Source: a virus. Taken from it: a stretch of DNA of 64,000 bases. How positions within the stretch are numbered: position 1 is the stretch's first letter; each line of letters starts with the position of its first letter. Of the stretch, positions 14,008 through 50,603 are shown in pieces. The stretch is from positions 1 to 64,000 of the IMG/VR virus record IMGVR_UViG_3300004369_000012; one strand, 5' to 3'. The notes below the pieces were generated by a model that saw only the letters and a list, made by a program, of their open reading frames with translations, was not told the origin of the DNA and ran no database searches. The position numbers and the translations under genes were made by a program.

Positions 14008-17000
14008 ATGGCGGGATTTGAACTAAGATCTACCAACAAGAAGTTCAATGCTCTTGGAGACAATGTAAATTACTCTTTCAAACTGAAGCATGAGGGATTT
14101 CCCGTGTTCAGGAAAGAGTTTGATGCATCAAATTCTGATGTGGTAGATGTTACTGAGAATACCATTAAAATCCCCCAGCATTACATGGTTACTGGTGAGG
14201 AACTCATTTATAGTGCTAACTTGCCCACATCAGGTAATGAGATCCGCATCGATAGTAGCAGCCCTGGTGTTGGTGGCACAGATTTTTTGCCATCATCAGT
14301 TTTTGCAATCAAGGTAGCAGAAAATAAGATCAGAGTTGCTGCTGGTAGAACCTATGCTTTGAATGATGATTACATTACATTTACTAGTGTCGGAATTGGT
14401 ACAACACACACATTAAAATCGATCAAGGAAAATACTAGATCTATTATTTCTCTTGATGGTGTTGTTCAATCACCCATTACTGATAGCGCACATACTACTA
14501 CTGCTTATTATATTTCAAATACTGAAGTTGATCTTGATGATGTTAGTAATATAAAACCTAATGGTCTAATCCGCATTGGTGATGAAATTCTGCGTGTTAG
14601 AACTATTGGGTATGCAAACTCTGAAAATAAACTACTCGTTGATCGTGCTTGGGTAAACACTACAAGATTAAATCACTCCGTACCAATTACAGCAACTCTT
14701 CTCAACGGCAACTACAATATTGATGGCGATGTATTGACATTCTCTGACTTGCCTGTCGGATGGCAAGGTGCTCAAATCGGTATTAAATCAGATTTCTTTG
14801 ATGCCGCTACGAGTAGTTTTACATTCAAGAATGATGCTTTCCAGCAAGGAACTGGTGTAAAACTACTTTCTGGTTTTCCTCCACAACCACTAGAGAATAA
14901 TACAGATTATTTCCTTATCAGAAACTATCAAAATAACTTTGGTTTTACTACAGATAGGGGTGACGCCTTAGCGGGTATCAATACAATTCAACTTGCCAAC
15001 GTTGGTGTTGGTACACACGTTTTAATTGTTGATGGTGAGTTCCCCTCAGAAAGTAAGTTTAACGGGCGCTTCTTCATTAGATCTGATTACACAACAAATC
15101 TACTGATCGACGATATTTCTGGTCAATTTACTGGTGCTGCTACCACTTTCAGTATTAAGAGTAACGGTATTAACACCGTTGGTATGGCAACTGATAATGG
15201 AATTATTTTGATCAATAATATCTTCCAAAGACCTACTATTGATTATGATTTTGATGAGGTTGGAGCAGCAACTTCGATTACCTTTACTGGCGCTAAAAAC
15301 TTAGCAGGAACTTACATCACTAGTCATTACGAAGTAAATCAAAACGCCGTTCCCAGAAGAGGTATTATTGTATCTGTTGCATCTACTCCTGGCACAGGAT
15401 ATCAACCTCAATATGCGGGTGTTGGCACTGCGATTGTATCTGGATTGGGTACGGTAGCAAGTGTATCCATTGCTTATACGGGATCTGGATATAGAGATAA
15501 TACATATCAGATTCAATTTAACTCTAAATCTGGTTTAGGAACTGGAGCAGAGGGAACATTTACAGTTGTTGATGGATACATTGATGCAAGTTCTGTAATT
15601 ATTACCAGTCCTGGTACAGGATATACTTGGGCGAATGGTAAAGAACCAGAACCTGTCTTCCAATTCCCACTTCCTTACGATGATATGTCTCTGGAAGGAA
15701 GTTTGACTGGTATTGGTGCTTCTGTTGTTGCTACCGTTGGCATCGGATCTAGTGTCAATGACTTTAAACTCGGCAATCTGGGTTATAACTATCGAGTCGG
15801 TGATGAATTGACTATTGTTGGTATGAAGACCGATAGTAACGCTGGCGCTGATTTCATTCCCTTTAAATTAACAGTTACTGACGTACAGGATGATACTTTT
15901 ACAGGTTGGACTCCTGGTAAGTTGAAGTTGTTGGATGATTTGTCCAGTGAATTTGATGGTGGATCTAGAATCTTTACACTTAAGGAGACTACGGCGGGAG
16001 TTCAGAGAGTTTATAATATTGAAAAAGAACCAGGTTCTTCTGTTGAATTAGATTCTCATTTGGTCATTTTCCTGAATGATGTTTTGCAGGAACCTGGTGT
16101 TTCGTATGAGTTCAATGGTGGTAATGAATTAATCTTCAGTGAGGCACCCGTAGAAGGGTCTGAGATGCAGATCTTTGTTTATATTGGTACTGATGCCGAC
16201 GTTGAAGAAAGAACAGAACCACAGACCATTAAACCTGGCGATACGGTAGTAATTGAAAAGTCCACTGATAAGACTCTTCCCGTAACGCAGGATGAGAGAT
16301 ATATCAGCGGCATTGAAGATACGGTTACCTTAAATACACCTCTGTATGCTGGTGTTGGCATCTCATCGGTAACTAATCCACTGAGACCTATTAACTGGTA
16401 CAAACAGCAAAATGATGCTATCGTTGGCGGTGAAATTATCAGTAAGGCGAGAGATATTTACAAGGCCAGAATTAATCCAACTACCAGAATTATTCAGACT
16501 GTTGGCACAACAACAAGTCATCTATATGCACAAAATGCCGATCTTCTATTTGAAAAAGTAGAACAACCAGATATATCTGAGTTTGATATTAAAATTATTG
16601 ATAGTGAATTTGTAACACGTCAGGCGGCGATTGGTACTGCAACAATTTCTGGGTTCGGTACAGTTGCAAGTATCACACTGTCTAATCCTGGTGCAGGTTT
16701 CTGGAAAGCGCCTACGGTTGTCATTGCAGGACCAGGTATTGGTACAACTGCCATTGTTACTGCTGGTGTTTCTGCAGCAGGCACAGTCACTGATTTTGTA
16801 TTTACTAATCCTGGTGCAGGTTATACTTTCTCCGATGCTCCTGTTGTGTTTATTGACGCACCACCAGCAAGAATTGAAACTAGAAGGGGTGTTGCTGTAT
16901 CTGGTGATTTTGGTATTATCACTGGTGTTGGCACTACCGCAACGGGTCTACAATTAGATTTCTTCATTCCCTTCGATTCTCCAATCCGTGATGGATCATT

Positions 17001-17394
17001 GGGGAATCTCACTAGATCTGGTATTGCAACTCATGATTACTTTATTTTGTCCAGAACTAACGTTGGTGCTGGTGTAACTGCTCTTGATCGTGATGATGCG
17101 GTTATCGGTATTTCTACAGAAAATCTTGATGGCGTCTTCCAAGTTGCTCATTATGAGTATATAACGGCAGGTGCTATTTCAACTGTCAGAGTACATACAA
17201 AAGTTGCTACGGATCATGGTGTAAATACATCGGGGATGACATCTGGTATTGGTACAAGTTTTGGTGAATTTTCTTGGGCGAAGTTCCAAGTTTCCAGACC
17301 TACTAATGGTAAACAGTTTAATGTTAACACAAACAACGGATTGACTGGTCTCTCTACTGCACCCTCCATTATAAGATCGCACGTATTGCCATGA
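14008..17394 (+). CDS. large virion structural protein, baseplate/tail fibre type (1128 aa)
   Basis: An 1128-residue beta-rich protein between gp7 and gp8 in the baseplate cluster. The N terminus (MAGFELRSTNKKFNALGDN) is followed by repeated short modules: an IGDEILRV...VDRAW element near residues 190-215, GxGY solenoid-like units near 486-557 and 890-952 (NPGAGFWKAPTVVIAGPG), and a LNDVLQEPGVSYEF element near 690 of the type common in phage fibre proteins. The module content overlaps that of gp7 and the 2324-residue protein downstream, so it most likely belongs to the baseplate periphery or short fibres. T4 gp9/gp10/gp11 are not recognisable here, and this protein may replace one of them; that is inference from position. 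Confidence 0.75.
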   Translation: MAGFELRSTNKKFNALGDNVNYSFKLKHEGFPVFRKEFDASNSDVVDVTENTIKIPQHYMVTGEELIYSANLPTSGNEIRIDSSSPGVGGTDFLPSSVFAIKVAENKIRVAAGRTYALNDDYITFTSVGIGTTHTLKSIKENTRSIISLDGVVQSPITDSAHTTTAYYISNTEVDLDDVSNIKPNGLIRIGDEILRVRTIGYANSENKLLVDRAWVNTTRLNHSVPITATLLNGNYNIDGDVLTFSDLPVGWQGAQIGIKSDFFDAATSSFTFKNDAFQQGTGVKLLSGFPPQPLENNTDYFLIRNYQNNFGFTTDRGDALAGINTIQLANVGVGTHVLIVDGEFPSESKFNGRFFIRSDYTTNLLIDDISGQFTGAATTFSIKSNGINTVGMATDNGIILINNIFQRPTIDYDFDEVGAATSITFTGAKNLAGTYITSHYEVNQNAVPRRGIIVSVASTPGTGYQPQYAGVGTAIVSGLGTVASVSIAYTGSGYRDNTYQIQFNSKSGLGTGAEGTFTVVDGYIDASSVIITSPGTGYTWANGKEPEPVFQFPLPYDDMSLEGSLTGIGASVVATVGIGSSVNDFKLGNLGYNYRVGDELTIVGMKTDSNAGADFIPFKLTVTDVQDDTFTGWTPGKLKLLDDLSSEFDGGSRIFTLKETTAGVQRVYNIEKEPGSSVELDSHLVIFLNDVLQEPGVSYEFNGGNELIFSEAPVEGSEMQIFVYIGTDADVEERTEPQTIKPGDTVVIEKSTDKTLPVTQDERYISGIEDTVTLNTPLYAGVGISSVTNPLRPINWYKQQNDAIVGGEIISKARDIYKARINPTTRIIQTVGTTTSHLYAQNADLLFEKVEQPDISEFDIKIIDSEFVTRQAAIGTATISGFGTVASITLSNPGAGFWKAPTVVIAGPGIGTTAIVTAGVSAAGTVTDFVFTNPGAGYTFSDAPVVFIDAPPARIETRRGVAVSGDFGIITGVGTTATGLQLDFFIPFDSPIRDGSLGNLTRSGIATHDYFILSRTNVGAGVTALDRDDAVIGISTENLDGVFQVAHYEYITAGAISTVRVHTKVATDHGVNTSGMTSGIGTSFGEFSWAKFQVSRPTNGKQFNVNTNNGLTGLSTAPSIIRSHVLP

Positions 17395-18086: not shown

Positions 18087-19613
18087 ATGCCCGCAATAAT
18101 TACTGACCAAATTAAAATTTTGAACTGTGCAAATTTTGTCAGTGGCGTTTCGACTTCTGACAATAGTTACTATGTTTTTGTTGGTTTGCCAGATGCCACG
18201 GCAACCGATGGTGACTGGAATAGTAATACTCCTTCCCCAATTGATAACTTTGATAATTACAACAATATCTTTGATAATTGTCTTGCTGCTAAAAAATTGA
18301 CGCCCTCTGACGTAAAAAGGGTTGTCAGAAAACTTGATTGGTCTTCAGGCAGTATCTATGAGATGTATCGTCATGATTACAGTGTAACGAATTTGTCTCC
18401 CCAGACCAGTTCAACCAATTTGTACAGTGCAAACTATTATGTTGTAAACTCCGACTTTAGAGTTTATGAGTGTCTTTATAATGGTGCTTCGCCCGCAAAC
18501 AGTGGGAATGGTACTTTCTCCACTGAAGAACCAGTTCACACCGATCTAGAACCAAGACTAGAATCTGACGGTTATATTTGGAAATATCTTTATACTATTA
18601 GTCCTAGCGATATTATCAAATTTGATAGCGTTGATTATGTTCCAGTTCCTGAAAACTGGGGATCTACAACGGCAACTGGATCTGATGTCAAAAATGCTTC
18701 TGTAGATGGTAAAATTAGTGTCATTACAATTAATGACACATCTGCTGCTTCTTATCAATTTAGTGGTCTAAAGGAAAACGTACCTGTTAAAGGTGATGGT
18801 TTTGGTGCCACCGCAGCGGTATTTTTCACCAACGGTAAACCCACAAGTGTTACTGTTACTAACGGTGGTTCTGGATATACCTTTGCAACACTTGATCTTG
18901 ATAGCGTTGTGACTGGTAGTGGTGCCGTGTTTGATGTCATCATCCCACCCCCTGGTGGTCACGGTTATGACGTTTACAGAGAACTTGGTGCTTTCAGAGC
19001 ACTTCTCTATGCACGACTTGAAAATACCGATGCATCGAACCCCGACTTTTTTGTAGGGAACCAATTCGCACAAATCGGTATTCTGAAGAACCCCACACAA
19101 CCAGGTTCTAATACAATTCAGACACAATCCACCCTAAACACTACATATGCACTCAGATTAACTGGTGCAACTTCTGAAAATCTATCAGTTCAGATTGATG
19201 GTGATCTTACCCAAACTATTGGTGTTGGATCAACTGCAATCGGTAAGATTGTTAATTATGATAGCACCACCAAAATTCTATCATACTGGCAAGATAGGGA
19301 TGTTGCAACTGGAACACCCACCTATGGATACACACTAAATAGATTTACTAGCACTCCTGGTAGCGGGGGTTCTACAAACGTTACAGTTACAACAACTACA
19401 GGTACTGCGTCTGTTGGTATTGAAACTACGTTTACTGGACTATCCACAACTGTCAACTCTCGTGTTTATTATTTTGGTAGAACCGTAACTAATGGTCTTG
19501 CCTCTCCTGAATTTAAAAAATACTCAGGTGACATTGTTTACATTGATAACAGAGCGGAAATTACCAGGTCGCAAAACCAACGAGAAGATATCAAGATTGT
19601 TTTAGAGTTCTAA
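18087..19613 (+). CDS. gp8: baseplate wedge protein gp8
   Basis: Recognised as gp8 by its N-terminal pattern: an opening DQIKILNCANFVSG, then SYYVFVGLPDATATDGDW near residues 27-45, a DVKRVVRKLDWSSGSIYEMY block near 75-95, and DGYIWKYLYTISPSDIIKFD near 160-180. T4 gp8 is 334 residues and a wedge component sitting between gp7 and gp10; this version is 508 residues. The extra length includes a GxGY unit at about 250-285 (TNGGSGYTFATLDL) of the kind seen in gp7 and gp14, plus a Thr/Gly-rich C-terminal region. It is preceded by a late promoter box and followed four bases later by the next large structural gene. Confidence 0.9.
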   Translation: MPAIITDQIKILNCANFVSGVSTSDNSYYVFVGLPDATATDGDWNSNTPSPIDNFDNYNNIFDNCLAAKKLTPSDVKRVVRKLDWSSGSIYEMYRHDYSVTNLSPQTSSTNLYSANYYVVNSDFRVYECLYNGASPANSGNGTFSTEEPVHTDLEPRLESDGYIWKYLYTISPSDIIKFDSVDYVPVPENWGSTTATGSDVKNASVDGKISVITINDTSAASYQFSGLKENVPVKGDGFGATAAVFFTNGKPTSVTVTNGGSGYTFATLDLDSVVTGSGAVFDVIIPPPGGHGYDVYRELGAFRALLYARLENTDASNPDFFVGNQFAQIGILKNPTQPGSNTIQTQSTLNTTYALRLTGATSENLSVQIDGDLTQTIGVGSTAIGKIVNYDSTTKILSYWQDRDVATGTPTYGYTLNRFTSTPGSGGSTNVTVTTTTGTASVGIETTFTGLSTTVNSRVYYFGRTVTNGLASPEFKKYSGDIVYIDNRAEITRSQNQREDIKIVLEF

Positions 19614-35298: not shown

Positions 35299-36687
35299 AT
35301 GTTAAACCCATTTTTTCTACAAGGACAAAGTTCTGAGCAAAATCTCATCCAAGACTTGATCAATGAGCAGATCAAGATGTATGGGATTGAAGTGATCTAC
35401 ATGCCCAGAACTTTTGTTAATGTAAAGACAATTATGAGAGAGGTAACTACCTCCAAATTTACAAGGTCTTTCCCAATTGAAGCATATGTAGAAAATTATG
35501 ATGGGTATGTTGGTAACGACATCACTCTGTCAAAGTTTGGCATCAGAACGCAAGACCAAACAACTTTAATTATATCACAAGATCGTTATGATACTTATAT
35601 TAGGTCACTGCTGACTGGTAGTTCTGGTGAGATGAGACTCACTAACAGACCAAAAGAGGGTGATCTAGTGTATTTCCCGCTGAGCAAAAGTCTCATGGAA
35701 ATTAAGTTTGTTGAAGATAGAGATCCTTTCTTTCAACTGCAAAAAAATTATATCTATAAGTTGACTTGCGAAGTCTTTGAATACGAGGATGAGGAAATTG
35801 ATGGACTCGTTGACGAAGTCAATGATATTGTTGACGAAAAAGGTTATCTAACTACATTAACTCTCGCGGGTGTTGGTACAACTGCTGCGGCAGTTGCAAC
35901 ATTTAGAGATGGTGGTATTTTTGCTCTAACACTTACAAATGATGGTTCTGGGTATGAAACAACCCCAACGATTAGAATTGAACCCCCAGATAGTGGATCT
36001 ACGGCAAGTGCAGTTGCTATTACAACTGCAAATCAGATGGGTTCCAAGTCTATTCGAAGAATTGAAATAACAAATCCTGGATTTGGATATACTCAAGTCC
36101 CAAGTGTTACATTTGTTGGCGGTTTGAACAACGGTAATGCGCCAACAAACGCTGCTACAGCAGTTGCTGGTGTTGGTACAACTGGTGTTGTTGGTGTTGT
36201 TACTGTAACTTCTGGAAGTTCCAATTATGGAATCGCTCCTTCGATCACATTCTCTGCACCAGATCTTGGTTATGGTATCACTGCAACTGGATATGCAGTT
36301 ATTGATAATCTTGGTGCGGTTTCTCAGATTAAAGTCACCAACGCTGGTTACGGATACACTCAACCCCCAACAATCACGATTGGTATGGGGCAAACAGTTG
36401 GTGTTGGCACATTTGTATATGGCAATTTTGTCAAGGGTGTTAGTAGTCTTACCACAGCGTTTGCTAAGGACTGGGATGTCAGAACTATGCTACTCAGAGT
36501 TAATAATGTTACTGGCAACTTTGAGGTTGGTGAAGTTATCAATACCACAGCATCTGATGCGGCGTACACCATCAAGGCAATTAATTATGATGATGAAGTA
36601 GATCCATTCGCAGATAATGATACATTTGAGACTGAGGCAGATGCAATTCTAGACTTTACAGAATCTAACCCATTTGGTGAGATCTAA
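35299..36687 (+). CDS. gp14: neck protein gp14, with an inserted repeat region
   Basis: The first 175 residues match gp14 well (NPFFLQGQSSEQNLIQDLIN, then KMYGIEVIYMPRTFVN near residues 28-45, and PFFQLQKNYIYKLTCEVFEY near 145-165). T4 gp14 is 256 residues; this one is 462. About 180 extra residues at 195-375 are made of at least three beta-repeats of the form NxGxGYxxxPxIxI (NDGSGYETTPTIRI, NPGFGYTQVPSVTF, NAGYGYTQPPTITI). The native C-terminal end (acidic, DPFADNDTFETEADA) follows. The same unit occurs in gp7, gp8 and two other structural proteins here, which suggests an accessory decoration on the neck. Confidence 0.92.
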   Translation: MLNPFFLQGQSSEQNLIQDLINEQIKMYGIEVIYMPRTFVNVKTIMREVTTSKFTRSFPIEAYVENYDGYVGNDITLSKFGIRTQDQTTLIISQDRYDTYIRSLLTGSSGEMRLTNRPKEGDLVYFPLSKSLMEIKFVEDRDPFFQLQKNYIYKLTCEVFEYEDEEIDGLVDEVNDIVDEKGYLTTLTLAGVGTTAAAVATFRDGGIFALTLTNDGSGYETTPTIRIEPPDSGSTASAVAITTANQMGSKSIRRIEITNPGFGYTQVPSVTFVGGLNNGNAPTNAATAVAGVGTTGVVGVVTVTSGSSNYGIAPSITFSAPDLGYGITATGYAVIDNLGAVSQIKVTNAGYGYTQPPTITIGMGQTVGVGTFVYGNFVKGVSSLTTAFAKDWDVRTMLLRVNNVTGNFEVGEVINTTASDAAYTIKAINYDDEVDPFADNDTFETEADAILDFTESNPFGEI

Positions 36688-36707: not shown

Positions 36708-37769
36708 ATGTTAGGTAATTATTTCTACTATGAAATTGTAAGGAAAACCGTTATTGGTTTCGGTTCCTTGTTTAATAATATTGAAGTTCGCCACAAAGCG
36801 GACAATACCGACCAGCTTTTGAGTAGGATTAAAGTTCCTATCGCATATGGTCCTATTCAAAAATTTCTAGCACGAATTGATCAGCAACCAAATTTAACTG
36901 ATGGTAGAGCAATTGCACTAACTCTGCCACGACTTGCTTTTGATATTATTAGTTATCAATATGATCCTTCAAGAAAAGCAAGTCCAATCACATCTTTTTG
37001 TGCAACAGACTCCGATGATAGTAATAAAATCAAGAAAGTTTTCTTGCCAGTACCATACAATATTTCCTTTAGACTGAGTTTTGCAACTAAGTTGCAAGAT
37101 GATGCTCTACAGATTCTTGAGCAGATTCTACCATACTTTCAACCATCCTACACGATGACCATCAACTTGATGAGTTCTATCGGACAAAAGAGAGATATTC
37201 CCGTTACACTAAACAATATTGACTTTCAAGATCAGTACGAAGGTGACTTTAGTACTAGAAGATTTATCCAATATGATTTGACTTTTACTGCCAAAACATA
37301 TTTCTACACTGAACTACCCACTGATGAATCTGGTGGTCTTATTAAGAAAGTTCAAATTGATTATCGCACCACCACACACGTTCCTGCACCAAGGGAAGTT
37401 CGTTACATCGCAGAACCTTTGGCAACAAAGGATTACAACGATGATGCTACAACAACAGTTGCCGAAGAGTTTACTGTTAAGAAGACTGCACTCAAGGTCG
37501 TAGACGCTGCAAATATTGCTGAACAATCTTATATTCAAGTTGATGAAGAGGTTATGTATGTCAAGTCTAAGTCTGGTAATACACTAACTGTTAATAGGGG
37601 CGTTTATGATAGTCCAATTCAACCACACTATGAAAACGCTGTTGTTAATCTCGTCAATAATGCTGATGCGGCGTTGATTGAACTTGGTGATGACTTTGGT
37701 TTCAGCGAAAGTACCACACTGTTCAATGATGGTAGATCCTATAGTGCTTCACAAGGGAGTGATGTATGA
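36708..37769 (+). CDS. gp15: gp15 tail completion/sheath terminator protein
   Basis: Recognised by an N terminus close to T4 gp15 (NYFYYEIVRKTVIGFGSLFN, then IKVPIAYGPIQKFLARID near residues 40-58) and by LQILEQILPYFQPSYTMTIN near 133-155, where T4 has a very similar QIVEQILPYFQP. The protein forms the hexameric ring on top of the tail that binds the neck. T4 gp15 is 272 residues; this one is 353. The extra C-terminal part contains IQVDEEVMYV followed by LTVNRGVYDS and a histidine (about 275-308), a module also seen in gp7 and other tail proteins here. The stop overlaps the gp16 start (ATGA). Confidence 0.92.
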   Translation: MLGNYFYYEIVRKTVIGFGSLFNNIEVRHKADNTDQLLSRIKVPIAYGPIQKFLARIDQQPNLTDGRAIALTLPRLAFDIISYQYDPSRKASPITSFCATDSDDSNKIKKVFLPVPYNISFRLSFATKLQDDALQILEQILPYFQPSYTMTINLMSSIGQKRDIPVTLNNIDFQDQYEGDFSTRRFIQYDLTFTAKTYFYTELPTDESGGLIKKVQIDYRTTTHVPAPREVRYIAEPLATKDYNDDATTTVAEEFTVKKTALKVVDAANIAEQSYIQVDEEVMYVKSKSGNTLTVNRGVYDSPIQPHYENAVVNLVNNADAALIELGDDFGFSESTTLFNDGRSYSASQGSDV

Positions 37770-38185
37770 GTGAAAAGTATGATGCAATCAACAAAGCATT
37801 AGATATTGATGCTGAGATTGTAGAGACCAAAAAAGAGGTGGTCAAAAAAGTCGAACGTCCTGATGATCCCCAAAAGGACTATGAGTATAGTAGAGGACAA
37901 TTGTATAACTTGATTGAAAAAGGTCAAGAAGCACTTAGTGGAATCATTGAGTTAGCACAGGAAACTGAATCTCCCAGAGCATTTGAAGTTGCTGGTCAAC
38001 TTGTTAAGTCTGTTGGTGATGTAACTGATAAGTTACTAGACCTTCAAAAGAAAATGAAAGACCTTGATGCACCCACTAAAAACGGTCCTCAGACTGTTAA
38101 TAATGCTTTGTTTGTAGGTAGTACAAAAGAATTACAAAAACTATTAAAGCAAGGTGTTCTAAATAATACTACGGATACTGAGTAA
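37766..38185 (+). CDS. gp16: terminase small subunit gp16
   Basis: A 139-residue, highly charged helical protein at the expected place between gp15 and gp17 (T4 gp16 is 164). It binds the concatemer and stimulates the gp17 motor. Visible features are the central coiled-coil-forming helices (YNLIEKGQEALSGIIELAQE, then AFEVAGQLVKSVGDVTDKLL) and the C-terminal ALFVGSTKELQKLLKQ, which matches the typical end of T4-type small terminases. It starts with ATGA overlap to gp15 and is followed three bases later by the 642-aa modular protein. Confidence 0.92.
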   Translation: MSEKYDAINKALDIDAEIVETKKEVVKKVERPDDPQKDYEYSRGQLYNLIEKGQEALSGIIELAQETESPRAFEVAGQLVKSVGDVTDKLLDLQKKMKDLDAPTKNGPQTVNNALFVGSTKELQKLLKQGVLNNTTDTE

Positions 38186-38187
38186 CC

Positions 38188-40116
38188 ATGAAGGATAAGG
38201 ATCACGAAGTGTCGATGGCCAAGACACAGGTGAAAAAATCTATTGCTAATCTTCAGAAAGTTGCAAGGGTACTTGCATCAAAAACTGATGATGACAATCT
38301 TCCTGCGTGGTTACAAGCAAAGTTGACCGACACTGAGCATAATAGTAGTGCTGCCGCCGATTATATGGGCGAAGGTAAAAAGGTGTGCGGTAAAGGTCAG
38401 TATTGGTGTAAAAAAGACGAGAAGTGCAAAAAAATCCCTGCAGGTATGCATGTCATGCCTAATGGAGACCTAATGTCAGATTCTGAGCATAGTGATGTCA
38501 GTGAAGCGAACAAAAGTGGTGATAGTTCTTTGCGTGACTGGTTTACTAAGAGTCGCTCTTCTGATGGGAAGCCTGGTTGGGTTCAACTGGGCGGTAAATA
38601 CGCAGGAAAGCCCTGTGCAAAACAACCAGGACAAAAAACAAAACCAAAGTGCGGTTCCTCAAAAATGGCAGCAAACCTAGATCCAGATGAGGAAGAAGCA
38701 GCGTTTGAACGTAAACAAAGAAAAGACAAAAATCCAGATCGTAAAGGACAGGCAATTAACGTGAAGACCGAAGAAAGAAAACCTGAAGTTGAAGCACAGG
38801 GTAGGAAAGTTGCTGGTTACGAAAAGGAAGGTAAGTATAAGGGAATCACTGATAAGTTCCGCAGGGAAAATCCTGGTTCACGCCAATCCAAGAAGGATCG
38901 TGGTGCAAAACCTTCCGAAGGTGAACGTCAAGCAGCACAAAGATCGACAATGAATAGACTTCAGGCAAAGTATGGTAGAACTACCAAACAGAAGCGTGAA
39001 GCTGAAATCATGGCAAAGCACACTTCTACACGTGATCATTTTGAACCTCAGGGTGAACAGATTGATGAACTTGCTCCACTAGCAGGTCTTGCTATTAGGG
39101 CAGGTCTTGCTGCTGGTACTGCGCTTGCAGGTAAAGCAGTCTATGATAAGGCAAAGGGTGTTGCTAATAAAATTAAAGATCAAAATCAGCAAAAATCTGA
39201 TGCCATTAAAAATATTCTAAGAAACTCTTATGATGCTAGTGGCGAAGTAGTTACTGAAGCAGGCAAGAAGTGCTGGAAGGGTTATAAGAAAGTTGGCACA
39301 CAAAAACTTTTTGGTAAGACTTATAATCGCTGCGAAAAAGAAAATTATAATTACTCCAACTGGAGAGATGATTTTGAACCAACCGTAATTCAATCAGTTG
39401 ATCTGATTAAAGCAGAACCTCTGGTTAGTGAGGAGGAGAAAAAGAAGAAGGATGCTTGCTATCACAAAGTCAAGTCTCGTTACTCTATTTGGCCCTCTGC
39501 TTATGCATCGGGTGCTCTAGTTAAGTGTCGCAAGGTTGGTGCTAAGAACTGGGGCAATTCTAAACAAGAAGAGTACGTAGCAGAAGTAGCACCAAAGGGT
39601 GATAAGTATGAAAGAATGATCAAGTATATCAAAAGAAATTATGCTAAAGATGGCAAACTAACTGATCGTGAGCGTTCTATTGCATATGCTACTGCATGGA
39701 AGCAGAAGGGTAGAGAGGAGCAAATTGCACCCAAAGGAGTTCCTGCTATTAGAGGTATTAGTGGTAAAAAACTTATGTCTGCACCTTTAGATCTTCGCAC
39801 TCCCGCTGAAAAAATGCAGAGTGTAAAAGATCAAGCAAGAAGGAGGTTTGGAGAAGGTGTACAAGAAGCATCAGCAGCATGGACCAGAAAGGCAGGAAAG
39901 GATCCCAGCGGAGGACTTAACGAGAAGGGTAGAAAGTCCTATGAGGATGAGAATCCAGGAAGCGATCTTAAGAGACCTTCAAAGAAAGTTGGGAACAAGC
40001 GTAGAGCGTCTTTTTGTGCGCGAATGAGGGGCATGAAAATTCAACTAACTAGTAAGAAGACTGCTAATGATCCTAATAGCAGGATCAACAAATCACTAAG
40101 AGCCTGGAACTGTTAA
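38188..40116 (+). CDS. modular basic, cysteine-bearing protein between terminase subunits (642 aa)
   Basis: A 642-residue, Lys-rich protein made of several short modules joined by charged linkers. Module 1, near 64-85, has VCGKGQYWCKKDEKCKKIPA. Module 2, near 103-160, has SSLRDWFTKSRSSDGKPGWV and two cysteines, resembling DUF5872. Module 3, about 359-384, is a KCWKGYKK...YNRCEK pair. Module 4, about 420-458, has CYHKVKSRYSIWPSAYASGA followed by KCRKVG. Module 5, near 471-510, is helical (YERMIKYIKRNYAKDGKLTD). Module 6, about 575-642, has RRASFCARMRGMKIQLTSKK and an ...AWNC end, resembling DUF6321. A hydrophobic Ala/Gly segment lies near 303-325. From memory, similar modules occur in marine phages and giant viruses, without known function. 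DNA binding or packaging with the genome is my inference. Confidence 0.75.
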   Translation: MKDKDHEVSMAKTQVKKSIANLQKVARVLASKTDDDNLPAWLQAKLTDTEHNSSAAADYMGEGKKVCGKGQYWCKKDEKCKKIPAGMHVMPNGDLMSDSEHSDVSEANKSGDSSLRDWFTKSRSSDGKPGWVQLGGKYAGKPCAKQPGQKTKPKCGSSKMAANLDPDEEEAAFERKQRKDKNPDRKGQAINVKTEERKPEVEAQGRKVAGYEKEGKYKGITDKFRRENPGSRQSKKDRGAKPSEGERQAAQRSTMNRLQAKYGRTTKQKREAEIMAKHTSTRDHFEPQGEQIDELAPLAGLAIRAGLAAGTALAGKAVYDKAKGVANKIKDQNQQKSDAIKNILRNSYDASGEVVTEAGKKCWKGYKKVGTQKLFGKTYNRCEKENYNYSNWRDDFEPTVIQSVDLIKAEPLVSEEEKKKKDACYHKVKSRYSIWPSAYASGALVKCRKVGAKNWGNSKQEEYVAEVAPKGDKYERMIKYIKRNYAKDGKLTDRERSIAYATAWKQKGREEQIAPKGVPAIRGISGKKLMSAPLDLRTPAEKMQSVKDQARRRFGEGVQEASAAWTRKAGKDPSGGLNEKGRKSYEDENPGSDLKRPSKKVGNKRRASFCARMRGMKIQLTSKKTANDPNSRINKSLRAWNC

Positions 40117-40123
40117 TTAAATT

Positions 40124-41839
40124 ATGTCTGATAATGTATACCTTGGCAACCCGAATCTAAAAAAAGCAAATACTGCGATTGAATTTACACAAGAGCAAAT
40201 TATTGAGTTTATCAAGTGTAAAGAAGATCCTGTCTATTTTGCAAAAAACTATATTCAAATCGTCTCTCTGGATGCGGGTCTTGTACCTTTTGAAATGTAT
40301 AAGTTCCAAGAGAAACTTATTAAAAGATTCCACAACAATCGATTTAATATCTGTAAAATGCCACGACAGACTGGTAAGTCTACCACATGCGTGTCATATT
40401 TGCTACACTATGCAATTTTTAATGACAACGTAAATATTGCTATTCTAGCAAACAAAGCATCCACTGCAAGAGACCTGCTTGGAAGGTTACAACTTGCTTA
40501 CGAGAACTTGCCAAAATGGATGCAACAAGGTATCCTAGTATGGAATAAAGGTAGTGTCGAACTCGAAAATGGATCAAAGATTCTTGCAGCGTCTACATCT
40601 GCATCTGCTGTCCGAGGCGGATCCTATAATATCATCTTTCTTGACGAGTTCGCCTTTATCCCGAATCACATTGCTGACTCGTTTTTTGCCTCTGTTTATC
40701 CTACTATCTCTTCTGGTAAAAGCACAAAGGTCATCATAGTCTCAACGCCTCATGGCATGAACCACTTCTACAGGATGTGGCACAATGCTGAGCGGGGCAA
40801 AAATGAGTATGTACCTACAGAGGTACATTGGTCAGAAGTACCTGGTAGAAATAAAAAGTGGAAAGAGCAAACCATTGCCAACACTAGCGAAGAACAGTTC
40901 AAAGTTGAGTTTGAATGTGAATTCCTAGGGTCTGTTGATACTCTAATTAGCAGTAGTAAACTTAAGACATTAGTTTTTGAAGAACCTGTTCGTAGAAACA
41001 AGGGTATGGATATTTTTGTCCCTCCCGCACCAGAAAATAATTATCTGATCACCGCTGACGTTGCAAGAGGTATCGGTAAAGACTATTCTGCATTTATCGT
41101 ATTTGATATTACTCAATTTCCATATAAAGTTGTAGCAAAGTATAGAAATAATGAAATAAAACCGATGCTATTCCCATCGGTCATCCAAGAAATTGCCGTG
41201 GCATATAACAACGCCTATGTACTATGCGAAGTCAATGATATTGGTGACCAGGTTGCTAGTATTCTACACTTTGATTTGGAATATGACAACATTCTGATGT
41301 GTGCGATGCGTGGTCGTGCTGGTCAGATTGTTGGTTCTGGGTTCTCAGGTAAGAAATCTCAACTTGGTGTCCGAATGACATCGGCAGTTAAAAAGTTGGG
41401 GTGTTCTAACCTAAAAACTTTAGTTGAGGATGATAAGTTATTGGTTTGTGACTATGACATCATTAGCGAACTAACAACTTTTATTCAAAGGAAGCAATCC
41501 TTTGAGGCAGAAGAGGGGTGTAATGATGACTTGGCAATGTGCCTTGTCATATTCTCTTGGTTGGTTGCACAAGATTACTTCAAAGAAATGACGGACAATG
41601 ATGTTCGTAAAAGAATTTATGAAGAGCAAAAGAATCAAATCGAACAAGATATGGCACCATTTGGATTTGTTTCAGATGGTTTGAGTGATATTGAAGGTGA
41701 AGTTGATTCTGTAGGTGACGTGTGGGTAATTGCTGATAAAAAGCAACGAGATTCTTGGTATGGCGAACCATCAATGCCAGATGGTGGATGGAATGTTGAT
41801 GAATATGGTGATAGATCATTTATGTGGGATTATAGATGA
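40124..41839 (+). CDS. gp17: terminase large subunit gp17
   Basis: The DNA-packaging motor ATPase and headful nuclease, 571 residues (T4 gp17 is 610). The N-terminal ATPase has Walker A RQTGKST at 81-87 and Walker B IIFLDEFAF at about 170-178 (D174, E175), with a coupling motif VSTPHGMNHFYRMW near 206-222. The C-terminal RNase H-like nuclease shows its acidic residues in ITADVARGIGKDYSAF (near 311-325), CEVNDIGDQVA (near 367-377) and CNDDLAMCLVIF (near 466-476). The gene is complete. It is separated from gp16 by the modular protein, unlike in T4, where 16 and 17 adjoin. Its stop overlaps the start of the small zinc protein. Confidence 0.97.
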   Translation: MSDNVYLGNPNLKKANTAIEFTQEQIIEFIKCKEDPVYFAKNYIQIVSLDAGLVPFEMYKFQEKLIKRFHNNRFNICKMPRQTGKSTTCVSYLLHYAIFNDNVNIAILANKASTARDLLGRLQLAYENLPKWMQQGILVWNKGSVELENGSKILAASTSASAVRGGSYNIIFLDEFAFIPNHIADSFFASVYPTISSGKSTKVIIVSTPHGMNHFYRMWHNAERGKNEYVPTEVHWSEVPGRNKKWKEQTIANTSEEQFKVEFECEFLGSVDTLISSSKLKTLVFEEPVRRNKGMDIFVPPAPENNYLITADVARGIGKDYSAFIVFDITQFPYKVVAKYRNNEIKPMLFPSVIQEIAVAYNNAYVLCEVNDIGDQVASILHFDLEYDNILMCAMRGRAGQIVGSGFSGKKSQLGVRMTSAVKKLGCSNLKTLVEDDKLLVCDYDIISELTTFIQRKQSFEAEEGCNDDLAMCLVIFSWLVAQDYFKEMTDNDVRKRIYEEQKNQIEQDMAPFGFVSDGLSDIEGEVDSVGDVWVIADKKQRDSWYGEPSMPDGGWNVDEYGDRSFMWDYR

Positions 41840-42051
41840 TGGAAGAAGATTTTCAATTTGATAGTCTATTTCTATCAGAAAGAAAATGTAAAACTTGTGG
41901 TTTAGTAAAGGACCTAATGAGTGAATTCTATGCCACTCATAGGCACAGTTCTAATGCATACTCATCTGAATGTAAACAGTGTGCTATTAAAAGAGCATCA
42001 AAAAATAGAAAAAAACGCATAAGAAATATTTCTGACTATCCAGACTGGTAA
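41836..42051 (+). CDS. small zinc-ribbon-like protein (71 aa)
   Basis: A 71-residue protein with two CxxC pairs, C18-KT-C21 and C46-KQ-C49, 24 residues apart, which could hold one zinc ion. The C-terminal part is strongly basic (RASKNRKKRIRN). This KxCxxCGxxK...FY...CKxC layout is common in small phage zinc ribbons and in the zinc part of HNH endonucleases, but no HNH catalytic motif is present. It overlaps the gp17 stop by four bases (ATGA), so it may be co-translated with the terminase; a second ATG at 41839 is also possible. A role in DNA binding during packaging is an inference. Confidence 0.7.
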   Translation: MMEEDFQFDSLFLSERKCKTCGLVKDLMSEFYATHRHSSNAYSSECKQCAIKRASKNRKKRIRNISDYPDW

Positions 42052-46847: not shown

Positions 46848-47416
46848 GCGCATCACAACCACTTAAAGTTTTTAGTATTGTCGGACCAATTTCTAGTAAT
46901 AACTCTACTCGTGTTACTGGGGATCGATACATTGTTAGAACTGGTCTACTACACGTTTCTGCTGCCGCAGGTAATGATGGTGGACTAGTTGGTGTTTGTA
47001 ACACTACGACTTCCAATGTAGGTGTTACTTCTATCCACGTGAATAAGGCGGATGACGTTCTTCTTAGATACGCTCACCCAAAACAAGCGAAGATTACTGG
47101 TATCACAACTGGAGCACAAACCACTCTGATTATTGATAGTCAGGATACTAAGTTTACTGTAGAGGATAGAATTACTATTCTTGGTTCTTCGGTTGGTATT
47201 TACAATACTACTCTACAGCATGTACAGGTCGTATCTGTAATTGGAAGTCAACTTTCTAATAATTACCAAACCAAGATTGTTGTTGACGCAGATACTAGTT
47301 CGGGTCATGCAGCATTTACTGGTGTTGCAACAGCATATAAATCGGTAATTCCAGTTGTAAAACCAGAGTCCAGCAACGGTTGTGAAGCATACTTCGCAGA
47401 GGTACAACTAGCATGA
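46844..47416 (+). CDS. hypothetical structural-type protein in the prohead cluster (190 aa)
   Basis: A 190-residue, beta-rich protein (MSASQPLKVFSIVGPISSNN, then RVTGDRYIVRTGLLHVSAAA near residues 22-42) with no membrane segment. It lies between the gp67-like ORF and gp21 and overlaps both by four bases, so its amount is tied to prohead assembly proteins. T4 has gp68 in this area, but this protein is larger and beta-rich rather than helical. A head decoration or vertex-associated role is a reasonable guess from its beta content and location. I do not recognise a family. Confidence 0.75.
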   Translation: MSASQPLKVFSIVGPISSNNSTRVTGDRYIVRTGLLHVSAAAGNDGGLVGVCNTTTSNVGVTSIHVNKADDVLLRYAHPKQAKITGITTGAQTTLIIDSQDTKFTVEDRITILGSSVGIYNTTLQHVQVVSVIGSQLSNNYQTKIVVDADTSSGHAAFTGVATAYKSVIPVVKPESSNGCEAYFAEVQLA

Positions 47417-48060
47417 AACTAATCACAGAAGAAATCGAATCGGTAGAAATTATTACCGAAGAACAAAACGGCAAAAAAACTCTGTATATTCAGGGTCCTT
47501 TTCTGCAGTGCGAAATCACTAACCGCAATGGTCGCATGTATCCCATGCAAACCATGGCAAAGGAAGTTGCTCGTTATACTGAATCTTTTGTGAATAAGGG
47601 TCGTGCTCTAGGTGAACTTGGTCACCCCGATGGTCCTTCCATCAACCTTGATAGAGTATCTCATAAAATTGTTGGTCTTTATCAAGAAGGTAACAATTTT
47701 ATCGGTAAGGCGCAAATTCTTTCCACACCCATGGGTAAGATTGCATCTTCTCTTCTTGGTGAAGGTGTAAAACTCGGTGTCTCTTCTAGAGGCATGGGTT
47801 CCATCTCTTCTAAAAATGGCGTGAACATCGTTGGCGAAGACTTTATGCTGGCAACTGCTGCTGATATTGTAGCAGATCCTTCCGCACCTGATGCATTTGT
47901 TGACGGCATCATGGAAGGTAAAGAGTGGGTTTGGGAAGGAGGAATCCTTCGCGAAGCACGTTGTGAGCAAGTTAAGAAGCAAATTAATACCCTAGTTGAC
48001 CAGAAAATGCTTGAGGCAAATAAACTCCGCCTCTTTGGCAATTTCTTGTCAGATATCTAG
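47413..48060 (+). CDS. gp21: prohead protease gp21
   Basis: The serine protease that matures the prohead by cutting scaffold and capsid proteins, 215 residues (T4 gp21 is 212). The catalytic pair is visible: H71 in GELGHPDGPS and S124 or S125 in GVSSRGMGS, in the order known for T4-type and herpesvirus-like prohead proteases. The start matches EIESVEIITEEQNGKKTLYI-like openings of the family. It lies directly before its main substrates, gp22 and gp23. The upstream gene overlaps its ATG. Confidence 0.96.
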   Translation: MKLITEEIESVEIITEEQNGKKTLYIQGPFLQCEITNRNGRMYPMQTMAKEVARYTESFVNKGRALGELGHPDGPSINLDRVSHKIVGLYQEGNNFIGKAQILSTPMGKIASSLLGEGVKLGVSSRGMGSISSKNGVNIVGEDFMLATAADIVADPSAPDAFVDGIMEGKEWVWEGGILREARCEQVKKQINTLVDQKMLEANKLRLFGNFLSDI

Positions 48061-48116: not shown

Positions 48117-49154
48117 ATGAGTAACGATCTACACGAAATGGAGAACCAGGTAACAAGAGGCGCTGCAGCCGCTGAACCTATGCAAAAAGTTTCGGGTTAT
48201 GTTCCCGATGCTGGCAGTATTGAAGATCTGGGTGGTCCTACTCCCCAGAACAGCAAGCCTACTGATGATAGCAACAAGTTGGCAACCCCAACCAAAACTA
48301 TCAAGCAGGTTAAAGATGTTGTAAACAAGGGTGCAAAACCCGCTGACCCCATGCCCAAGGCTCCTGCTTATGCAGAAGAGACCGAAGAGGAAGAGGGTAC
48401 AGAAGAGGAAGTCTTTGCAGAACAGCAAGAAGAAACTCTAGAACTTGACCTCGAAGAAGATGTAAATGCACTTCTTGAAGGCGAAGAACTCTCCGAAGAG
48501 TTTAAAGAAAAAGCAACTATCGTCTTTGAAGCAGCAGTCCGTTCTAAGATTGCTGGTATTCAAGAGGCACTTGAAGCGCAGTACAATGCTGCACTTCAAG
48601 AAGAGATCGAATCTATGAAGAGCGATCTAGTTGAGCGTGTTGACGCTTACCTAGAGTACGTTTCTGAAGAGTGGATCTCCGAAAATGAACTCCAGATCGA
48701 ATCTGGAATCAAGGCCCAAGTAGCAGAAGACTTCATGTCTGGTCTCAAGGGTCTTTTTGAAGAACATTATGTGTACATCCCTGAAGATAAATACAATGTG
48801 CTAGATGCTATGGTAACCAAGCTTGATGAGATGGAAACCAAACTCAACGAGCAGATTGATAGAAACGTTGCACTGAACAAACAACTTTCTGAGTCTGTCT
48901 CTGGCAATATCCTCGATGAAGTATCTGGGGGTCTTGCACTGTCCCAAAAGGACAAACTCGCTTCTCTTGCAGAGGGCGTTGAGTTTGCTAGTGAGGAACA
49001 GTATCGTGAGAAACTGGTGACTCTACGTGAGTCATATTTTCCAACCCAGACTGCAACGGAGACTTCTGAGCAAGTCCTTACCGAGGAGGCAGTCGTAGAT
49101 CATGGTTCGACAATGAATGCTTATCTGAGAGCACTCACTAAGTATTCTAAGTGA
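48117..49154 (+). CDS. gp22: prohead scaffold protein gp22
   Basis: A 345-residue, very acidic, helical protein just before gp23, the expected scaffold core protein (T4 gp22 is 269). Residues 85-125 hold a dense Glu region (ETEEEEGTEEEVF), followed by long coiled-coil helices (IESMKSDLVERVDAYLEYVS and VTKLDEMETKLNEQIDRNVA). The C terminus (STMNAYLRALTKYSK) is the usual end of the family. It would assemble around the portal and be degraded by gp21. The N-terminal 85 residues are Pro- and Lys-containing and probably disordered, explaining much of the extra length. Confidence 0.94.
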   Translation: MSNDLHEMENQVTRGAAAAEPMQKVSGYVPDAGSIEDLGGPTPQNSKPTDDSNKLATPTKTIKQVKDVVNKGAKPADPMPKAPAYAEETEEEEGTEEEVFAEQQEETLELDLEEDVNALLEGEELSEEFKEKATIVFEAAVRSKIAGIQEALEAQYNAALQEEIESMKSDLVERVDAYLEYVSEEWISENELQIESGIKAQVAEDFMSGLKGLFEEHYVYIPEDKYNVLDAMVTKLDEMETKLNEQIDRNVALNKQLSESVSGNILDEVSGGLALSQKDKLASLAEGVEFASEEQYREKLVTLRESYFPTQTATETSEQVLTEEAVVDHGSTMNAYLRALTKYSK

Positions 49155-49196: not shown

Positions 49197-50603
49197 ATGT
49201 TCATGTCTGAACAGTTGCAGAAAAAGTGGGAACCTCTCCTTAACGCTGAAGGTCTTGAGCATATCAAAGATCCTCATCGTAGAGCGGTTACCGCAGTTCT
49301 GCTAGAAAACCAAGAATCTTTCCTTCGCCAGGAGCGTGCGCTTCTAAGCGAAACCCCTACAGTCAACACCGACCCCGCAGGTAGCGGCAACCCTGGTTTC
49401 TCGGGTAGTGCAGCAACCTCCCCCGTCGCTGGTTTTGACCCCGTTCTGATCTCCCTGATCAGACGTTCTATGCCCAACCTGGTTGCTTATGACCTGGCTG
49501 GTGTTCAACCAATGAACGGTCCTACTGGACTGATCTTCGCAATGCGTTCCCGCTACTCTTCCCAGAGTGGCACCGAAGCACTGTTCAACGAACCCGATTC
49601 GGCGTTCTCTGCACAGAACAACAATGCTTACAACCTCACCCAAGGTGATTACACTGGCGGTACTGATGGTGGCAGCAGCGTTGGTTTCGGTACAACTGCA
49701 CAGAGCGGTGTAAACCCTGCAGCACTAAATGGTGGCGCTGCAAACTCGTATAACGTTGGTCAAGGTTTCAGAACTTCTGAACTAGAAGCACTAGGTGACA
49801 ACACCACCACCAACGACTTCAACGAGATGGCTTTCTCGATCGAGAAAGTTACCGTTACTGCAAGATCCAGAGCACTCAAGGCTGAGTACTCCTTGGAACT
49901 AGCACAAGACCTTAAGGCAATCCATGGTCTAGATGCTGAAGCGGAACTCGCAAACATTCTCTCCACAGAGATTCTTGCTGAGATCAACCGCGAAGTCATC
50001 AGAACCATCTACAAGGTTGCTGAAGCTGGTGCTCAGCAGAACGTTGCAACTCAGGGTGTATTTGACCTTGACGTTGACTCCAACGGTCGCTGGATGGCAG
50101 AGAAGTTCAAAGGTCTTCTGTTCCAACTAGAGCGCGATGCTAACGCAATCGCACAAAGAACTCGTAGAGGGAAGGGCAACATCATCCTCTGCTCCGCAGA
50201 CGTTGCTTCCGCACTCTCCATGAGCGGTGTTCTAGACTACTCCCCCGCACTCAACACTGGTCTCCAGGTTGATGACACTGGTAATACCTTCGCTGGTACT
50301 ATCAACGGTAAGTATAGAGTCTACATCGACCCCTATGCTGCTAACCTAAGTGCTGATCAGTACTACGTTATCGGTTATAAGGGTACTACTCCTTACGACG
50401 CAGGTCTCTTCTACTGCCCCTACGTTCCTCTCCAAATGGTTCGCGCCGTTGGTCAGGACACCTTCCAACCCAAGATTGGTTTCAAGACCCGCTACGGCAT
50501 GGTCGCGAACCCCTTCGCACAGGGCACAGAGCAAGGTTTCGGTGCAATTGCTGCAAGCAGCAACCGTTACTACAGACGTGTCAAGGTTGCAAACCTCATG
50601 TGA
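49197..50603 (+). CDS. gp23: major capsid protein gp23
   Basis: The HK97-fold major capsid protein, 468 residues (T4 gp23 is 521). Signature stretches include SLIRRSMPNLVAYDLAGVQP near residues 85-105 and GPTGLIFAMRSRY, FSIEKVTVTARSRALKAEYS near 212-232, and ILSTEILAEINREVIRTIYK near 255-275. The C terminus ends YYRRVKVANLM, typical of the family. An N-terminal propeptide of about 50 residues is expected to be removed by gp21; LLSE at 49-52 fits an LxE cleavage site. ATG at 49203 is a possible alternative start. Codon use is more GC-rich and even than in neighbouring genes, consistent with very high expression. No gp24 paralogue is present in the window. Confidence 0.98.
   Translation: MFMSEQLQKKWEPLLNAEGLEHIKDPHRRAVTAVLLENQESFLRQERALLSETPTVNTDPAGSGNPGFSGSAATSPVAGFDPVLISLIRRSMPNLVAYDLAGVQPMNGPTGLIFAMRSRYSSQSGTEALFNEPDSAFSAQNNNAYNLTQGDYTGGTDGGSSVGFGTTAQSGVNPAALNGGAANSYNVGQGFRTSELEALGDNTTTNDFNEMAFSIEKVTVTARSRALKAEYSLELAQDLKAIHGLDAEAELANILSTEILAEINREVIRTIYKVAEAGAQQNVATQGVFDLDVDSNGRWMAEKFKGLLFQLERDANAIAQRTRRGKGNIILCSADVASALSMSGVLDYSPALNTGLQVDDTGNTFAGTINGKYRVYIDPYAANLSADQYYVIGYKGTTPYDAGLFYCPYVPLQMVRAVGQDTFQPKIGFKTRYGMVANPFAQGTEQGFGAIAASSNRYYRRVKVANLM

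Follow-up and report, generated by a model that had tools for sequence, protein, structure and literature searches.

A multi-module protein encoded between the terminase genes of a T4-like virus is probably a prohead-targeted precursor of internal head peptides

The window, by which we mean the whole 64,000-nucleotide stretch of DNA analysed here, belongs to a virus record of 69,163 bases, and its late genes are arranged in a T4-like order. Between the terminase genes lies an intact open reading frame for 642 amino acids on the + strand (38188-40116; ATG at 38188, stop at 40116), the product of which has a net charge of +53 and a pI of 9.8. The gp16 gene (37766-38185) ends 2 bases before this ORF and gp17 (40124-41839) begins 7 bases past its stop. 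The protein matches phrog_727 (8.6e-128), a family named T4-GC 119 in cyanophages (Sullivan et al. 2010, PMC3037559), and tblastn revealed relatives in 492 phage records, chiefly of Synechococcus and Prochlorococcus phages. In the literature searched, T4-GC 119 was labelled only as hypothetical or as a “structural protein”, and no processing or function was proposed. Comparison by sequence with solved structures gave a single match at chance level (E 0.27), and no tandem repeats of note were found at the DNA level. Elsewhere in the window, we noted a zinc-finger-like 71-aa ORF with two Cys pairs (CKTCG...CKQC) in the gap between gp17 and gp18 (41836-42051), and GxGYxxxPxVxI repeats that recur within several tail/neck proteins (35299-36687, gp14-like; 5710-13986; and 14008-17394).

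A sequence-only reading of this DNA had described a modular protein between gp16 and gp17, and both the intact ORF and the recurrence of its modules in relatives bear this out. The features of the protein are as follows, with predicted cuts marked by an arrow.

38188..40116, + strand: proposed precursor, T4-GC 119 / phrog_727 family, 642 aa
38200..38370, + strand: module HEVSMA, residues 5-61, no Cys, found at other places in relatives
38365..38373, + strand: predicted gp21 site MGE↓GKKVCG, P1 = E62, motif at border
38374..38490, + strand: module CGKGQYWC, residues 63-101, 3 Cys, recurs in relatives
38497..38505, + strand: predicted gp21 site VSE↓ANKSGD, P1 = E106, motif at border
38506..38772, + strand: module LRDWF, residues 107-195, 2 Cys, recurs in relatives
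38803..39030, + strand: basic segment FRREN, residues 206-281, close relatives only
39061..39069, + strand: predicted gp21 site IDE↓LAPLAG, P1 = E294, motif at border
39070..39183, + strand: LAPLAG segment, Ala/Gly-rich and helix-like, residues 295-332, from sequence and relatives
39250..39258, + strand: predicted gp21 site VTE↓AGKKCW, P1 = E357, motif at border
39259..39348, + strand: module KCWKGY, residues 358-387, 2 Cys, recurs in relatives
39424..39432, + strand: predicted gp21 site VSE↓EEKKKKDACYH, P1 = E415, motif at border
39433..39567, + strand: module ACYHK, residues 416-460, 2 Cys, recurs in relatives
39577..39585, + strand: predicted gp21 site VAE↓VAPKGD, P1 = E466, motif at border
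39586..39723, + strand: basic segment KYERMI, residues 467-512, close relatives only
39859..39867, + strand: predicted gp21 site VQE↓ASAAWT, P1 = E560, motif at border
39868..40113, + strand: C-terminal module DUF6321 / PF19846, residues 561-642, 2 Cys (Pfam 1.8e-21; AlphaFold)

Five of these modules (CGKGQYWC, LRDWF, KCWKGY, ACYHK and DUF6321) recur in many of ~90 related loci, and because of this homology we regard them as real rather than as products of chance. The comparison drew on 79 related contigs and reference phages, plus 79 further contigs reached via DUF6321; among the related loci the recurring modules differed in number, order and neighbours, with DUF6321 the last module in nearly all relatives. 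The “at least six” modules of the earlier reading, which had suggested comparing their number and order in related phages, prove to be more than six once the HEVSMA N-terminal domain and the FRREN, LAPLAG and KYERMI segments are counted, the latter three recurring only in a few close relatives. The stretches it quoted (of the KCWKGYKK, CYHKVKSRY and SFCARMRGMK types) are all present in the protein. The Cys modules are mostly basic (median pI 9.0-10.7 for the five modules, with 2-3 Cys each), as are the predicted pieces of the 642-aa protein (pI mostly 7.9-10.7). Not every piece in the family is basic: a DUF192 domain (PF02643), which is acidic (pI about 4) unlike the modules adjoining it, is one module of the S-SM2 precursor (L004:5701-7827) and of ~25 others. 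Modules are also found as separate genes, for example SCREM1_179 of phage S-CREM1, which is DUF6321 alone, and at one related locus (L044) they are divided over two ORFs.

Only the C-terminal module has a Pfam name. DUF6321 matched residues 570-640 with 76.9 bits, well over the gathering cut-off of 28.5, in agreement with the likeness to DUF6321 suggested earlier; the likeness to DUF5872 suggested alongside it was not recovered, as neither the 642-aa protein nor six full-length homologues gave a DUF5872 match at E<=1. No other Pfam family was matched by the 642-aa protein at that threshold. The AlphaFold model of DUF6321 (mean pLDDT 85) is mostly helical and matched no PDB fold at E<=10, nor did the module match any solved structure by sequence, and a literature search that covered few subscription journals found no paper on it. 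The model of LRDWF was of low confidence (pLDDT 62), and its fold was therefore left unused.

The T4 prohead protease gp21 cuts after L/I-X-E, and an Asp in the P1 position prevents the processing of T4 IPIII (PMC9026906). Eight [ILVM]-x-E motifs occur in the 642-aa protein, and seven of the eight coincide with module borders. Such a motif lies within 10 residues upstream of each of the five modules recognised by homology, an arrangement reached by random placement with a Monte Carlo p of 5e-6; the FRREN segment has no site ahead of it. Predicted gp21-type sites are present ahead of the mature parts, with V (five sites) or M (one site) at P3 in 6/7 cases where the T4 rule wants L or I. These joints were absent from the earlier reading, and they supply a mechanism for its idea of head cargo.

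The same motif marks module junctions across the family. In a set of 153 non-redundant junctions from 41 non-redundant homologues, which share ancestry and are not independent of each other, [ILVM]xE was present at 123 (80%), in comparison to 15% of random positions in the same proteins (5.3-fold), and the enrichment taken module by module had p values from 7e-9 to 2e-31. Control motifs showed no gain at junctions over random positions ([ILVM]xD, 11% vs 10%; [ILVM]xK, 5% vs 17%; [KRDN]xE, 24% vs 21%), and replacement of Glu by Gln or Asn gave no enrichment. The spacing variants [ILVM]E, [ILVM]xxE and [ILVM]xxxE rose about threefold, below the value for [ILVM]xE, and a rise of this kind is expected because Glu and hydrophobic residues cluster there. 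At KCWKGY junctions with a site, P3 was I or L in 55/58 and P1' was mostly Ala, although these rows were picked to contain the motif, a selection that partly dictates P3 and P1. Conservation at this joint starts at P3, with P9-P4 near random (~3.3 bits of residue entropy), and the P1 Glu is encoded by both GAA and GAG. DUF6321 junctions fit more poorly (53% strict), and variants such as LQTE↓G and HAE↓G were seen.

The modules are shuffled and their junctions have common ancestry, and the protein could on that account be an uncut structural or DNA-binding head protein in which the Glu motifs are merely linkers inherited through module shuffling. We consider this very improbable, given that unrelated modules have the motif in common at differing distances, that the enrichment is seen with Glu but not with Asp, and that the positions above P3 are near random.

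The window also encodes a candidate cutter and a candidate docking partner, and its major capsid protein has a predicted site of the same type.

47413..48060, + strand: gp21-type head maturation protease, proposed cutter (phrog_207, 3.6e-82)
48117..49154, + strand: gp22-type head scaffold (prohead core), proposed docking partner (phrog_237, 1.9e-107)
49344..49352, + strand: predicted gp21 site LSE↓TPTV in the major capsid protein gp23, motif at the expected place

The gp23 proteins of S-SM1, S-SSM5, S-CREM1 and S-CREM2 have LTE or LSE at the place that matches the window's LSE. A precursor cut by gp21 might itself be a prohead core protein, scaffold-like in the manner of gp22, gp67 or gp68, most of whose pieces exit before DNA entry, and the T4 core proteins are indeed also cut by gp21 into several fragments that are mostly removed (PMC9026906). 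The sites in the 642-aa protein are few and stand at module borders, unlike those of cyanophage gp22, which has 18-20 scattered [ILVM]xE motifs, and the variable module content suits cargo more than scaffold. These differences, together with the virion data described below, make a scaffold-like role unlikely.

Free copies of DUF6321 provide a natural comparison. Where a locus has no T4 head genes, DUF6321 occurs as a short gene of its own (~84 aa) with a start like MAKSPAWQRKEGK, and these short genes had no cleavage site in 41/41 cases and no capsid-targeting sequence (CTS) either. In T4-like loci, nearly all copies have a Glu directly ahead, with the strict motif in 41/71 multi-module copies, and comparison of the two groups shows that the free protein begins near the position of the predicted cut. 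The absence of the motif from the free copies outside T4-like loci is a further point against the inherited-linker explanation. The free genes sit among portal, scaffold and capsid genes (in podoviruses, by scaffold and capsid). In HTVC033P, P-SCSP1d and S-RIP2, a mini-gene adjoining free DUF6321 encodes GLYANIHAKRKR..., and in a T4-like relative (locus L097) a single ORF unites the two modules, which HTVC033P encodes in separate adjacent genes; this ORF begins with a CTS-like sequence and has ELTQE where the modules meet (MKNFREFRELAE↓AKRGLYANIHAKRKR...ELTQE↓AAAWTRK). The mini-protein (GLYANIHAKRKR...GAKGAPTxANFKRAA.TAKK; L088:5855-5986, L086:8201-8377 and L087:6196-6708) is very basic and adjoins free DUF6321 in podovirus-like genomes of cyanophages and pelagiphages; in S-RIP2 a longer protein comes after it in the same frame.

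In T4, IPII and IPIII both begin with the CTS MKTYQEFIAE↓A. The stand-alone DUF6321 protein SCREM1_179 (91 aa) begins MKTYNDFITE↓V, a two-module relative (L130) begins MKTYSQFIVE↓H, its CTS-like start preceding the CGKGQYWC module, and the L044 locus has a CTS-like MKSFKQFME ahead of the same module. In S-CREM1, L130 and L097, a canonical CTS stands in the place of a linker, which again tells against inherited linkers. The 642-aa protein begins MKDKDHEVSMAKTQ and has no CTS-like start of the MKTYxxFIxE type, and S-CREM2 ORF137, a homologue located between the terminase genes, is also without an N-terminal CTS. A strict CTS pattern, applied to the 6936 Met positions of the first loci, had 16 distinct matches, and all of them were genes neighbouring the T4-GC 119 family. 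The pattern was also recast at the DNA level and applied to T4, the window's record and eight cyanophage records; there were one to three matches per genome, except for the window's record, which had none, and a reversed control had none either. In six cyanophages, the match was the cytidylyltransferase gene GC190 or an unnamed gene for a comparable protein in a comparable position; the product of GC190 is among the virion proteins of both S-SM1 and S-CREM2. Over the whole S-CREM2 genome the strict pattern had 2 matches, both of them virion proteins by mass spectrometry, and a looser pattern, chosen partly after the virion list was known, had 5, all virion proteins (p = 3e-8) and including a SAM hydrolase and a kinase. 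A CTS start thus predicts virion proteins in S-CREM2. Our searches, which covered few subscription journals, found no paper on capsid targeting or internal head proteins in T4-like cyanophages.

Several further CTS-like starts were observed. In S-CREM2 (OR473000; L005/L189-L198), the virion-associated ORF6, ORF13, ORF14, ORF136 and ORF154 have T4-type CTS starts (MKDFDSFLEE, MKDLHSFLTE, MKRFDAFLTE, MQTFSMFFSE and MKNFSSFLTE), and host-directed functions (SAM hydrolase, kinase, cytidylyltransferase) are found among its CTS-bearing virion proteins; ORF12 and ORF15 have weaker likeness, the Cas9-annotated ORF12 having LRFASFMAE near its start. The main text of the S-CREM2 paper reported the virion presence of these proteins without a targeting explanation (PMC10665884). 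A small family, phrog_1742 (MKSFKQFLSESVNIAGDFNGTL...; e.g., L083:7076-7402, L007:6493-6774 and L090:5283-5609), has a CTS start and, in many relatives, sits next to the precursor gene; beside the window precursor, where gp17 comes immediately after, it is absent. T4 gp61.1 (L184, T4 19101-19130), annotated as hypothetical, begins MKTFKEFIKED, closely like the IPII/IPIII targeting sequence.

S-CREM2 ORF137 was detected by mass spectrometry in the CsCl-purified virion from 4 unique peptides, at a coverage of 4.1% (PMC10665884); this homologue holds few of the modules. The low coverage would suit a scaffold-like protein that mostly leaves the head, while the presence of the homologue in finished virions speaks against one. 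A second indication comes from GenBank, where the note “similar to Synechococcus phage S-SM1 protein” sits on GC119 in S-SSM5 and S-SM2. In the stretches examined of these two genomes, the note is also on virion-type proteins (gp13-15, 18-21, 23, 3, GC190, GC402 and GC403), and it is not on terminase, scaffold or replication genes; S-SSM5 gp22 is without it, a difference from GC119 that also argues against a scaffold-like role. From this pattern we infer that the GC119 protein is in the S-SM1 virion.

The virion data bear equally on the suggestion, made in the earlier reading, that the protein acts in DNA packaging. A location between gp16 and gp17 is a known trait of T4-GC 119, seen in many cyanophages, and would fit a packaging factor that works with the terminase, but finished virions, in which a homologue is found, have shed the motor. 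In several phages, metabolic genes stand between the T4-GC 119 gene and gp17, the podovirus DUF6321 genes adjoin scaffold and capsid genes, and the 642-aa protein has no similarity to terminase families, its PHROG matches being families of unknown function and one weak tail-fibre match. We found no support for a packaging role besides gene position; it is extremely improbable, and head cargo is favoured.

Overall, our data support a reading that we hold to be likely, namely that the 642-aa protein is a prohead-targeted precursor from which gp21 cuts small internal head peptides, most of them basic, and that these are probably ejected along with the DNA. The precursor would be made late, as in T4, and would enter the prohead core; as the window protein is without a CTS, its N-terminal domain or its basic modules may dock to gp22. 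On activation, the gp21-type protease would cut after [I/L/V/M]-x-E at the joints and release the small, mostly basic and mostly Cys-bearing modules. By analogy with T4, the basic peptides would be retained in the head, where they probably bind DNA, and together with the genome would probably be ejected into the next host, like IPI-IPIII. We infer cutting at the joints, head retention and ejection alike, with the first step and the last two of this scheme drawn from T4. The earlier reading had the protein carried into the head and injected; the first half is supported by the virion homologue, the border sites, the CTS of relatives and the head-cluster DUF6321 genes, and the second half would hold by analogy with T4. 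Given that T4 IPI acts against a nuclease of the host, some modules may plausibly serve in counter-defence. More tentatively, and as something we hold to be less likely than not, marine T4-like phages may possess an exchangeable multi-peptide cargo, in which one precursor with gp21 sites places a chosen set of small Cys-bearing peptides in the head at equal copy, and the peptides, once ejected, differ in their targets in host defence or take-over.

If correct, this reading would give a mechanism and exact predicted cut sites to a family that occurs in hundreds of cyanophage records and has hitherto been termed hypothetical. The T4 capsid-targeting/internal-protein system would thereby extend to cyanophages and gain a format in which a single gene loads several head peptides together. 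The reading would also furnish a usable rule, whereby cyanophage proteins carried in the head could be recognised by a CTS start plus a Glu site; applied to S-CREM2, the CTS rule picks out the SAM hydrolase, kinase and cytidylyltransferase, virion proteins previously without explanation.

The closest known system is that of T4 IPI, IPII and IPIII, small basic head-internal proteins with a Glu cleavage rule, which the predicted pieces of the window protein would resemble. The CTS of the T4 proteins (MKTYQEFIAE) and those of relatives with one or two modules (MKTYNDFITE, MKTYSQFIVE) are almost the same. The window protein differs in that a single precursor holds many modules and has sites within it, an arrangement in several parts that has not been described for T4, and in having no N-terminal CTS, whereas SCREM1_179, L130 and L097 have one. 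The mature parts have no similarity to the T4 proteins, and IPII and IPIII match other PHROG families than the window protein does. With T4-GC 119 / phrog_727 the window protein shares both family and, in many phages, gene place, and its last 82 residues are DUF6321 (PF19846), elsewhere usually a free ~84-aa gene. In giant phages, ejection proteins of the SPN3US gp53 and PhiKZ type are carried in the head and cleaved behind x-x-E by a related protease, and some of their propeptides are cut several times (PMC10052503). Those cuts strip N-terminal propeptides, whereas the cuts in the window protein would separate successive functional modules.
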